Assembly (NCBI GenBank): GCA_012034765.1
Contig: JAAUOU010000002.1
Coordinates: forward strand, 1-64,000
DNA from: Pleurocapsaceae cyanobacterium CSU_1_1
Lineage (GTDB): Bacteria; Cyanobacteriota; Cyanobacteriia; Cyanobacteriales; Xenococcaceae
Reading direction: 5' to 3'
Length of the DNA stretch: 64,000 nt
Shown one piece after another: positions 1,066 through 5,488 of this stretch. Position 1 is the first letter of the stretch; every line of letters begins with the position of its first letter. The notes below the pieces were generated by a model. The model ran no database searches and had not been told where the DNA came from. It saw only the letters and a list, made by a program, of their open reading frames with translations. The position numbers were made by a program, and so were the translations under genes.

Positions 1066-1161
1066 GCTAAGTTAACGAGCGCTTGTACGCGGAACGGCAG
1101 CATATGCTATTGTTTGTGTAGTCAATTCTAGCGCCGTCTGGTGAAGCGTAAGCCGTTAGGC
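1066..1161. other. attC-like recombination site 1 (left boundary of the hydrolase cassette)
   Basis: An imperfect inverted repeat of about 90 bp ends in GTTAGGC (1155-1161), which fits the attC R' consensus GTTRRRY exactly. The left arm contains GTTAACGAGCGCTTGTAC, and the right arm contains GGTGAAGCGTAAGCC before R'. Comparing the left arm with the reverse complement of the right arm gives TAACG and then CGCTTGTAC against CGCTTCAC, with one extra G in the left arm. Such an unpaired base is typical of folded attC sites. The left R'' box (AGTTAAC) deviates from RYYYAAC at one base, and the right arm is about 3 nt longer than the left. Confidence 0.55.
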
Positions 1162-1212
1162 TGACTTGAAAGATTACCAAATTCTGTTCGGTGGGCATTT
1201 AGAGTATTAACG

Positions 1213-2079
1213 ATGGGACGAACATCTGCCAAAATAAACATGCCTTGCGCTCAGATGAACGAATTATTGCAGTTCCGAGCGACACATCCCATACAACGTC
1301 AATCAATCGATGGTGTGGAATGGAACTATATCCTTAGTGGTACAGGCACAGAAACCATCTTGGTTCTCAGCGGAATGCTCGGTAGAGCAGATACTGGATA
1401 CCGAATGGTGATGAATTTTGAAAAAACTTATCGTGTTTTGTCAATTTCCTATCCCTTATACGACGAAATAAGCGCATTGGTCGATGGATTAATCAAACTC
1501 ATAGATAGAGAAGGCATTCGGCGTGTCCATTTTGTTGGAACATCGCTTGGTACCGCTGTCGGTCACGTGCTAGTTCGGCGTTATCCCGACCGGCTCGAAC
1601 GGATAGTGCTATCAACTTTTGGAATATATGACAGCAAAAAATTGAAGCAATTCAAACAATTTATCTATTTGTTAGATCGCTTACCTTATTGGTTGATTAA
1701 AAAATACTTTAAATTGGTCTTCCCTAATTCATTAAAAGGGTTTGATGAATCGGACAAGAAATTTCAAATCGCCTACTTAAACGATCTACTCGATCTTCAA
1801 GGTGATAAGCAAACGATTATGAGTCAATATCGAATGATACTAGAAATGTTTGAGAATCCCACTTATGGAATTGATCGACAGATCGATAATTCTTCGATTC
1901 TCATTATGCAGTCCCAGGATGATGAGAGCTGGGATCGCAATGCACAAGCAGTATTTCGCCAAGCATATCCAAATGCCCACATTCGGTTATTTGAGGAAGG
2001 CGGGCATTTGAGAGAAATCAGGGATGAAATCGAACATATTGAAACTATTCGTCATTTTTTGGAGTTGAAATCAGCCTAA
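1213..2079 (+). CDS. Alpha/beta-hydrolase, probable integron-type cassette gene
   Basis: A 288-residue soluble alpha/beta-hydrolase. The nucleophile elbow is GTSLGT with Ser111. The probable acid lies in the SQDDESW segment near residue 237, and the catalytic His is in EEGGHLRE near the C-terminus. An oxyanion-type SGMLG stretch follows the first long strand (about residues 53-57). The substrate cannot be told. ATG codons at residues 11 and 15 are alternative starts, since no clear ribosome binding site precedes the first. The stop codon TAA is embedded in GCCTAAC, the R'' box of the second attC-like site, exactly as in classical gene cassettes. No integrase gene or attI site is visible, and no own promoter is obvious. 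Confidence 0.8.
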   Translation: MGRTSAKINMPCAQMNELLQFRATHPIQRQSIDGVEWNYILSGTGTETILVLSGMLGRADTGYRMVMNFEKTYRVLSISYPLYDEISALVDGLIKLIDREGIRRVHFVGTSLGTAVGHVLVRRYPDRLERIVLSTFGIYDSKKLKQFKQFIYLLDRLPYWLIKKYFKLVFPNSLKGFDESDKKFQIAYLNDLLDLQGDKQTIMSQYRMILEMFENPTYGIDRQIDNSSILIMQSQDDESWDRNAQAVFRQAYPNAHIRLFEEGGHLREIRDEIEHIETIRHFLELKSA

Positions 2080-2160
2080 CAAGTCCGTTGCACAATGACC
2101 GTATTGAGATTGTTGCTGAGTCGGGGAGTTCCTGGCGGCTGGTGAACAGAGTCGTTAAGA
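2074..2160. other. attC-like recombination site 2 (right boundary of the hydrolase cassette)
   Basis: The site starts with GCCTAAC (fits RYYYAAC) overlapping the hydrolase stop codon and ends near GTTAAGA (fits GTTRRRY except the last base). The left arm TAACAAGTCCGTTGCAC matches the reverse complement of the right arm, TAACGACTCTGTTCAC, at most positions, with one extra G in the left arm only, as in known attC hairpins. The length of about 87 bp is in the normal attC range. The right arm shares CTGGTGAA with site 1, so the two sites are related. Together they delimit a cassette of about 1 kb running from the first R' to the second R'. Confidence 0.65.
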
Positions 2161-2301: not shown

Positions 2302-3153
2302 ATGATTAACAAAATTCTATACGCTGATTCTGGAGCAGAAAATGCTCAAGATATGCTCAAAATACTATTAGAGCTTCCCTCCACTAAGAATGCTCAAGTG
2401 TCAATTTTGAAGGTGATTTCGCCAAAAACCACCCAAGAAGAATCGGCGGCCCAAGAAGAAGCTCAAGCAAAAATTGGTGAATTGGTTGCCAAACTTGGGA
2501 CAAATTGCGATGAAGCTAGCTGTAAGGTTGAGGAAGGTGAACCCAAAACTACTGTGCTTAAGGTGGCACAAGAAGTGGATGCCGATCTAATTATTATGGG
2601 TTCGCGGGGTTTAGGTAAATTACAGTCGATTCTCAGTAATTCTGTGAGTCAATATGTATTTCAATTAACCGATCGCTCAATGCTGCTGGTAAAAGATGAT
2701 ATCTATGTCAAAAAACTAAAGCGAGTTATGGTGGCGCTTGATAAATCTCCTGGGGCAAGCTATGCTTTGGAACTTACCCTATCTCTACTACAGGGTTATC
2801 AAGATGCAGAGATCTTTTTGACCAGGGTTAATCCAGATTTAGATCCCAACGTTAATTTATCTCAAACAGATATGGAGAGTAATCCAATTTTGGCTCCAGC
2901 GATCGCCAAAGTCAAACGTATGGGTTTGCAATATCGCTGTTTGGTAACAGGTGGTAGACCAGCACAGAAGATCTGTAGTTTAGCTGAAGCTAGAAATATC
3001 GATCTGTTAGTTTTAGGTTCTCCTGAACGTCGTCCTTCCATTGCTAAAAGCCTGCCAGATATTGAGCGTTTATTAGGTAGTTCTTTATCTGACTATATTC
3101 GCATCAAAGCACCTTGTCCTGTGCTTTTGGCTAGGCAAGAGGTAGCAGCTTAG
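2302..3153 (+). CDS. Tandem universal stress protein (UspA family)
   Basis: A 283-residue cytoplasmic protein made of two Usp domains (about residues 1-135 and 139-280). The first domain carries the ATP-binding type loop GSRGLGKLQ...SNSVSQYV (about 99-118), matching the G-2x-G-9x-G(S/T) pattern approximately. The second has VLGSPERRPSI and a C-terminal PCPVLLAR strand. Tandem Usp proteins bind ATP or AMP and act in stress survival; the exact role here is unknown. It stands alone between the cassette region and psaB and is followed by its own hairpin terminator. Confidence 0.88.
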   Translation: MINKILYADSGAENAQDMLKILLELPSTKNAQVSILKVISPKTTQEESAAQEEAQAKIGELVAKLGTNCDEASCKVEEGEPKTTVLKVAQEVDADLIIMGSRGLGKLQSILSNSVSQYVFQLTDRSMLLVKDDIYVKKLKRVMVALDKSPGASYALELTLSLLQGYQDAEIFLTRVNPDLDPNVNLSQTDMESNPILAPAIAKVKRMGLQYRCLVTGGRPAQKICSLAEARNIDLLVLGSPERRPSIAKSLPDIERLLGSSLSDYIRIKAPCPVLLARQEVAA

Positions 3154-3291: not shown

Positions 3292-5488
3292 TTAACCAAA
3301 TTTACCAGCAGTCGAGGCAATCAAGAAGGCTGCGTAGGTCAGAATATAACCCACAGTAAAGTGAGCCAGACCGACTACACGACCTTGAACGATGGACATA
3401 GCAACTGGCTTGTCTTTCCAACGAACTAAGTTCGCCAGAGGAGTACGCTCGTGCGCCCAGACAATAGTTTCAATCAACTCTTGCCAATAACCACGCCAAG
3501 AGATGAGGAACATGAAACCAGTCGCCCAAACTAGGTGTCCAAAGAGGAACATCCAAGCCCAAACAGAAAGGTTATTAACACCATAAGGGTTATAGCCGTT
3601 AATCAATTGCGCAGAGTTTGCCCAGAGATAATCACGGAACCAACCCATGAGGTAAGTAGAGTTTTCGTTGAACTGAGCAACGTTACCCTGCCATACACCA
3701 AGGTGTTTCCAATGCCAGTAGAAGGTTAACCAGCCCAAGGTATTGAGCATCCAGAACATTGCTAAGTAGAAGGAATCCCAAGCTGAGATATCGCATGTAC
3801 CGCCACGACCAGGGCCATCACAAGGGAAAGCAAAACCGAAGTCTTTTTTATCGGGCATTAATTTGGAACCACGGGCATCTAAAGCGCCTTTGACTAGAAT
3901 CAAAGTAGTGGTGTGTAATCCTAAAGCGATCGCATGGTGAACCAAGAAATCTCCAGGTCCAATAGTAAGGAACAAGGAATTTGTACCACTATTGATCGCA
4001 TCTAGCCAGCCAGGTAGCCAAGCTGCACCAGTTTGGGTAATGCTATCAGGATTAGAAAGAAGTACATCAAAGCCATAGAGAGCTTTTCCAGAGGCGGCTT
4101 GAACAAACTGTGCAAACACAGGCTCGATCAAAATTTGCTTTTCTGGAGTACCAAAAGCTACTACTACGTCATTGTGTACATACAAACTCAAGGTGTGGAA
4201 GCCAAGGAAGAGAGATACCCAACTTAAGTGAGAAATAATCGCTTCTTTGTGCTGTAAAACTCTTGATAGTACGTTATTTTTGTTAGCTTCGGGATCGTAA
4301 TCTCTCACGAGAAAGATTGCACCGTGAGCAAACGCACCGACCATCAAGAATCCAGCAATATATTATGGTGAGTATATAAAGCTGCTTGAGTTGTATAATC
4401 CCTCGCAATAAATGCATAGGAAGGCAAGGAATACATGTGTTGTGCGACCAAGGAAGTAACCGTACCTAAACTAGCCAGAGCCAAAGCTAACTGGAAGTGC
4501 AGGGAGTTATTCAAAGTGTCGTACATTCCTTTGTGTCCTTCACCCAAACCGCCTTGAGGAGGCTTATGAGTGTCCAGAATCTCTCTGATGCTATGACCAA
4601 TACCGAAATTAGTGCGGTACATATGTCCAGCAATGATAAAGATAACTGCGATCGCCAAGTGGTGATGAGCAATATCTGTCAACCACAGAGACTCGGTTTG
4701 GGGATGAAAACCACCTAAGAAAGTTAAGATAGCTGTTCCTGCTCCTTCAGAAGTTCCAAACACATGACCAGCAGTGTCAGGATTCTGAGCATATACACCC
4801 CAGTTAAGACTAAAGAATGGCCCCAAACCAGCAGGATGAGGAGGAGTAGAAAGAAAGTTATCCCAACCCACATGCTGTCCACGAGATTCTGGGATAGCAA
4901 CGTGAACTAGGTGTCCAGTCCAAGCCAAAGAACTTACCCCAAACAAACCAGCTAAGTGGTGATTGAGGCGAGACTCGGCATTTTTGAACCAAGCCAAGCT
5001 AGGACGGAATTTTGGCTGCAAATGCAGCCAACCAGCAAACAAGAAGATAGACGACAAGAGCAATAAGAAAATCGACCCTTGATATAGTTCTTGGTTGCTA
5101 GTCATACCAATGGTATAAAACCAGTGATAAACCCCTGAGTAGGCAATGTTTACTGGGTTAGAAGCTCCACCTTGAGTAAAAGCATCGATTGCTCCTGCTC
5201 CAAAGTGAGGATCCCAAATCGCATGAGCGATGGGACTTGTATTTAAAGGATCTTTAATCCACTGTTCAAAGTTACCTTGCCAAGCTACATGGAACAGAGT
5301 ACCGGAAGTCCACAAGAAGATAATGGCAATATGACCAAAATGGGAGGCAAAAATCTTTGGTAAAGATTTTCCTCAGTCATACCATCATGCAACTCAAAGT
5401 CATGAGCGGTGGCAATTCCATACCAGATCCGACGAGTGGTCGGGTCTTGGGCGAGATCCTGGCTAAATTTGGGAAATTTAGTTGCCAT
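3292..5488 (-). CDS. psaB: Photosystem I core subunit B (PsaB), reading frame broken twice in this sequence
   Basis: PsaB pairs with PsaA to bind P700, the core antenna chlorophylls and the FX cluster in the thylakoid. The FX-binding loop [17 protein letters not shown] is present, as are many His-rich transmembrane segments. The start peptide [20 protein letters not shown] is the usual one. The gene is split into three frames by two single-base losses. One is at about 5356-5358, where an AAA run should be AAAA after LYQ (Lys codon). The other is between 4364 and 4365, where a C is missing in the minus-strand CAT-CAA of THHQYIAGF. Restoring both gives 732 residues, the normal length. No other mutation is evident, which points to sequence error rather than decay. 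psaA lies 274 nt upstream, as expected for a psaAB operon. Confidence 0.95.

Follow-up and report, generated by a model that had tools for sequence, protein, structure and literature searches.

The usual description of an integron is that of one platform, intI with attI and the cassettes attached to it, which moves only as a whole, aboard a transposon or plasmid. Related arrangements are the integron mobilization unit (IMU) and the MITE-flanked class 1 integrons (Poirel 2009; Gillings 2009; described in PMC13367494 and listed in PMC8618304), in which, so far as the description in PMC13367494 goes, two separate MITE copies (with Tn3-type ends for the IMU) flank a segment. In cyanobacteria, attC sites form an established class, being one of 11 taxon-specific models (PMC8352920), and sedentary integrons with an intI-attI pair include that of Pleurocapsa sp. 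MO_192.B19 (G004:C452). Our literature search, whose coverage left out the majority of subscription papers and every bioRxiv preprint, returned cyanobacterial integrons and no attI-bearing MITEs.

The window (the whole 64,000-nucleotide stretch that was analysed) begins at base 1 of contig C120 of a 4.6 Mb genome (G000), the assembly of which is 95.9% complete. Upstream of position 2196 it aligns to none of ten genus mates, and homology to relatives restarts at 2196. We consider it probable that this segment is a non-autonomous, MITE-like element which carries attI without an integrase gene and whose cassettes were loaded by IntI; the mobile attI shell that we infer around the cassettes is well supported. 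With the IMU and the MITE-flanked class 1 integrons, as these are portrayed in PMC13367494, the segment would share the combination of a non-autonomous inverted-repeat element, integron cassettes and mobilisation in trans, but it differs from them in that one pair of terminal inverted repeats (TIRs) encloses attI, the ends are IS5-type-like with a TNA target duplication, and intI is absent. It resembles IS5-family MITEs in its 22-bp TIR beginning GAGACTGTTT, its TNA duplication and its short relatives of 142-191 bp in the genus, whereas it additionally carries attI and cargo cassettes. Its attI and attC families are shared with the sedentary cyanobacterial integrons, from which it differs in having no intI. 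The array also fits the working definition of a CALIN (at least two close attC sites and no integrase), and resembles CALINs and integron cassettes in its tandem ORF and attC units, its R''/R' boxes, its attC stems with an extrahelical base and the absence of an integrase nearby, yet, unlike a CALIN, it keeps attI and is enclosed in transposon-like ends.

The first-pass annotation of this DNA had proposed that two attC-like sites bracket a hydrolase gene. A covariance model (CM R1) trained on 21 attC sites that come from other cyanobacteria, and on neither window site, gave exactly two matches over both strands of the 64 kb; they lie at the proposed places, on the + strand. The sites and the cassettes which they close are as follows.

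Positions 199 to 1155, + strand: gene cassette 1, with the Mrr-type endonuclease gene, an 84-aa ORF and attC1, between the R' of attI and the R' of attC1
Positions 230 to 805, + strand: Mrr_cat restriction-endonuclease-like protein, 191 aa (Pfam PF04471, E 4.9e-8)
Positions 802 to 1056, + strand: 84-aa ORF of no known family, which overlaps the endonuclease gene at its end (ORF list, Pfam)
Positions 1070 to 1161, + strand: attC1, R'' AGTTAAC at 1070-1076 and R' GTTAGGC at 1155-1161 (CM R1 32.6 bits, E 3.5e-7)
Positions 1156 to 2154, + strand: gene cassette 2, with the alpha/beta hydrolase gene and attC2 (R''/R' complementarity; inverted repeat detected)
Positions 1213 to 2079, + strand: alpha/beta hydrolase, 288 aa, GTSLG nucleophile motif and His in GGHL (Pfam PF00561, E 2.2e-6)
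Positions 2074 to 2160, + strand: attC2, R'' GCCTAAC from 2074 and R' GTTAAGA at 2154-2160 (CM R1 46.4 bits, E 1.7e-11)

Most of the training sites, which are mostly located downstream of attI-type sequence, came from a scanner in which pairing raises the score (19 matches in 213 kb and none in shuffled sequence), and their covariation is therefore partly built in; the scores of the window sites are unaffected, because these sites were excluded from training. Both R' boxes named by the first-pass annotation were recovered, as was its placing of the start of the second repeat in the hydrolase stop codon, which the R'' of attC2 overlaps; the first site was also recovered, but its start moves from 1066 to 1070, where its R'' lies. 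Both sites combine RYYYAAC/GTTRRRY boxes, paired L boxes and an extrahelical base, with the R'' of attC1 one base off RYYYAAC and the R' of attC2 off GTTRRRY at its last base. The extra unpaired G that had been noticed in the left arm is real, and an extrahelical G at this place is a common feature of the 21 aligned cyanobacterial sites (model column 17), none of which comes from the window. The local alignment of attC2 with an attC beside the decayed intI of a genus mate scored 31 (maximum in 500 shuffles, 17), and attC1 is homologous and closely similar to the last attC of another array (G011:C113). Minimum-energy folding of the bottom strand, named as a check by the first-pass annotation, gave unimpressive values (-10.8 and -3.5 kcal/mol for the two sites); folding alone is no proof of an attC, and the covariance model was therefore used. 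An Rfam search gave no match.

Once excised, a cassette forms a circle, and the R'' at the gene end then pairs with the R' at the cassette's own start. In cassette 1 the R'' (1070) is complementary at 7/7 positions to the cassette's own start (GTTAACT, 198-204), and in cassette 2 the R'' (2074) is likewise complementary at 7/7 to its own start (GTTAGGC, 1155-1161), whereas the two boxes of each attC site as it now stands match at just 4/7 and 5/7. With GTT/AAC fixed, we calculate the chance of two perfect matches over four free bases at about 1 in 65,000 when any base may stand at each position, and at 1 in 256 when the choice is limited to purine/pyrimidine classes. The two perfect matches across cassettes therefore delimit two cassettes, 199-1155 and 1156-2154, and it is near certain that the genes of the segment are cassette genes.

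The cargo has the patchy, foreign character that is a trait of gene cassettes. The Mrr_cat protein shares 50% identity with a restriction endonuclease from a Pantoea plasmid and has no homologue at E<=1e-15 in 195 other genomes of the order; no phage match was found for it, and a PADLOC run reported no defence system. That this nuclease may act against foreign DNA is a guess, as is the function of the hydrolase. The hydrolase has no homologue at E<=1e-25 in 292 other genomes of the order and no relatives in the genome contig collection; its similarity to RutD/PcaD-type enzymes is weak, and tblastn against plasmids returned distant hydrolases alone (<30% identity). Nor is the region beside the hydrolase conserved in relatives as ordinary intergenic sequence, a pattern that would have spoken against a cassette.

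To the left, cassette 1 abuts an attI site that has been split by an insertion sequence.

Positions 1 to 172, + strand: 3' end of an IS630-family element (transposase C-terminus at 1-156, right end at about 172) splitting attI (multi-copy, tblastn)
Positions 173 to 204, + strand: right half of attI, ending in R' GTTAACT at 198-204 (attI alignment)
Positions 125 to 165 of contig C152 (G000:C152:125-165), - strand: left half of attI (attI alignment after removal of the IS at its TA target)

The start of the window, and of its contig, lies inside the IS630 element, whose own start falls at the beginning of contig C152; C152 runs on into mazG. The element is multi-copy in G000, where C43, C156 and C90 match at up to 171/172 positions, and its tblastn matches are annotated as IS630 family transposases (82-85% identity). 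The join of C152 to the window rests on the IS630 ends, the register of attI, the TIRs with their target-site duplication (TSD), and synteny, rather than on a read. A short third attC at 159-204 was considered and rejected, as other copies of the IS end at 172 and the remainder matches attI. Once freed of the IS, the attI site, with its cassette insertion point at G198|T199, aligns to the region just upstream of the intact intI in G004:C452 with a score of 98, where shuffles reached at most 39, and likewise to the attI region at the intact intI in G022:C150 with a score of 93, where shuffles reached at most 47. The intact IntI of the genus mates G003 and G004 lie on small contigs, with possible contamination, and served for homology alone.

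This sequence family adjoins intI in several genomes. A scan for the attI core in one genome per species (84,980 species) gave 78 places, nearly all of them cyanobacterial, and a recognisable, often fragmentary intI stood beside the core in 18 of the 66 loci with at least 600 bp upstream. Another count concerns 18 loci at which attI could be matched with an attC further downstream: in 9 of these the R'' of the first such attC was perfectly complementary to the R' of attI, where 2.8 were expected (p 0.0002). From this complementarity and the adjacency to intI it follows that the family behaves as attI. A scan for the Pc promoter consensus was near chance (11 found, 7.9 expected).

Of the parts of a complete integron, the locus has an attI, interrupted by IS630, and lacks a functional intI adjacent to it. 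No intI scored above the family cut-off in G000, and a search with a cyanobacterial IntI query returned small fragments and generic tyrosine recombinases only, none of them in the window; given the completeness of the assembly, a complete intI elsewhere in the genome is unlikely. One fragment (G000:C57:6529-6660) adjoins another attI, in a second relic integron with an intI N-terminal fragment (44 aa), attI, 2-3 genes and an attC (G000:C57:6529-8723, L269). The earlier description, in which a cyanobacterial chromosome holds an integron-type cassette and the window has no integrase, agrees with these searches and with the attC matches. Its account of a cassette captured or left in the chromosome was right as to the cassette and incomplete, as there are two cassettes, an attI half-site and enclosing TIRs.

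The outer boundaries of the segment resemble those of a transposable element.

Positions 166 to 187 of contig C152 (G000:C152:166-187), - strand: left TIR GAGACTGTTTATAAAGTAAATA, partner of the right TIR
Positions 2172 to 2193, - strand: right TIR, GATTCTGTTTAGAAAGCAAATA as read on the - strand (inverted-repeat comparison with C152)
Positions 2194 to 2196, no strand: target-site duplication TCA, which also precedes the left TIR in C152
Positions 2302 to 3153, + strand: universal stress protein gene (usp), the host gene adjoining the insertion (comparison with relatives)

The two 22-bp TIRs are identical at 18/22 positions, a level reached by shuffles in 1/300. When the element and one TCA were removed, the resulting junction aligned without gaps across the insertion point to the nearest relative searched, Pleurocapsa sp. 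CCALA 161 (G005; Usp 98% identical), in which mazG is the gene upstream of usp. The locus shows two marks of a MITE, namely TIRs and a target duplication that corresponds to an unoccupied site in a relative. The family of the left TIR numbers 27 matches across the genus and its relatives, against 2 for a reversed control pattern, and TNA precedes 24/27 of them. The short MITEs of the genus mentioned above have the same kind of TIR, with an identical TNA on both sides in 7/8, and the G000 shell without its cassettes would measure about 127 bp. In another family of the order, G034:C55 holds a 915-bp IS with matching ends and an IS5-like transposase, a label taken from the look of the protein with no model match behind it. 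G000 itself yielded no autonomous IS bearing such ends, and its sole IS5-like transposase (C102) is without such TIRs. A left TIR like that of the window element is joined to attI at other loci too. A similar TIR occurs at just 1/78 of the named attI loci, which makes the shell look restricted to this genus.

On the reading of an attI-bearing, MITE-like element, the shell, with its 22-bp TIRs and 3-bp TNA target duplication, would have transposed into the site between mazG and usp, the IS5-like transposase presumably being supplied in trans. An integron integrase, acting in trans or encoded by a gene since lost, would have added two circular cassettes by attI x attC recombination, the hydrolase cassette first and the Mrr-endonuclease cassette next, between the hydrolase cassette and attI; this loading may have come before or after the insertion of the shell. 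Later, IS630 would have entered attI at a TA dinucleotide and broken it. As attI is disrupted and IntI is lacking, the array is probably frozen today.

A different history, which we judge unlikely, is that a full chromosomal integron inserted together with intI, that intI was then deleted, and that the TIRs are the ends of an unrelated MITE or an accidental repeat. Decay of intI beside a retained attI is common, as the mostly fragmentary genes at 18/66 loci illustrate, and the relic on C57 is one such case in G000 itself. However, the left TIR lies less than 100 bp from the point in attI where cassettes insert, an interval that has neither room for intI nor a trace of it; the TIR, the TSD and the empty site coincide exactly at both ends; and the joining of a left TIR to attI recurs at further loci. 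It is far less probable still that the cassettes were inserted directly at secondary, attG-like chromosomal sites without attI. This is a known process (Loot et al. 2024, as cited in PMC12444791), and dispersed attC singletons occur elsewhere in G000, 5/6 of them without a nearby attI, but the left boundary of the window array is an attI homologue in register with cassette 1. The modest folding energies would suit chance inverted repeats in ordinary intergenic DNA, an explanation that is refuted by the model E-values (1.7e-11 and 3.5e-7, the sole matches in 64 kb), the absence of the region from relatives and the double 7/7 match of R'' and R'.

Parallels to the proposed MITE-like element exist in two genus mates, G012 and G011, which have a similar TIR-bounded attI element at one and the same locus, where the flanks are 93.6% and 91.4% identical. 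The order there is left TIR, attI, cassettes and right TIR, the last directly after the final R' (GTTAATG). The cassettes differ, with HAD and GNAT genes in G012 and BrnT/BrnA-like and GNAT genes in G011, named from protein appearance without a model search. These orthologous attI elements (G012:C98, L152 561-2234; G011:C113, L153 1055-2890) have target duplications that differ alike at the two ends (TAA/TAA versus TCA/TCA), which may reflect concerted change or independent insertion. G011 also has an attC in an insert that flanks usp on its opposite side, between usp and psaB (G011:C5:36176-36260, L066).

A search of the rest of G000, which the first-pass annotation had also suggested, gave six further attC sites on other contigs and IntI as fragments only, none intact. 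Just 1/6 of these sites has an attI nearby, so the scattered cassettes may have other origins too. At G000:C53:9796 and C80:30553 (L265, L266), an attC stands directly behind toxin-antitoxin-like pairs (BrnT/BrnA-like and RelBE-like by eye). Cassette load varies strongly within the order, with 46 attC sites in G014 and 17 in G033. An attI-like pair 146 bp apart, with no intI seen near, is found at G000:C26:16077 and 16223 (L088 ~4077-4257). G000:C130:23146-23250 (L089, L095) has an intact attI with the same left TIR and apparently without cassettes; no right TIR was seen there or at the TIR-attI copy in G005:C172. The attI on C130 is a candidate for an unoccupied landing site.

Our data suggest that attI alone appears to be mobile, and that it keeps capturing cassettes at several loci of the genus after intI has been lost or has decayed. 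It is about an even chance that attI-bearing miniature transposons serve as mobile landing pads, with a transposase scattering integrase-free attI sites and an IntI acting in trans to load or swap their cassettes. If true, the capture site of an integron would be separated from its integrase and cassettes could be captured at many sites along the chromosome, helping to explain scattered integron cassettes in genomes that lack integrases. The mobile attI also makes a testable prediction, namely that IntI acts in trans.
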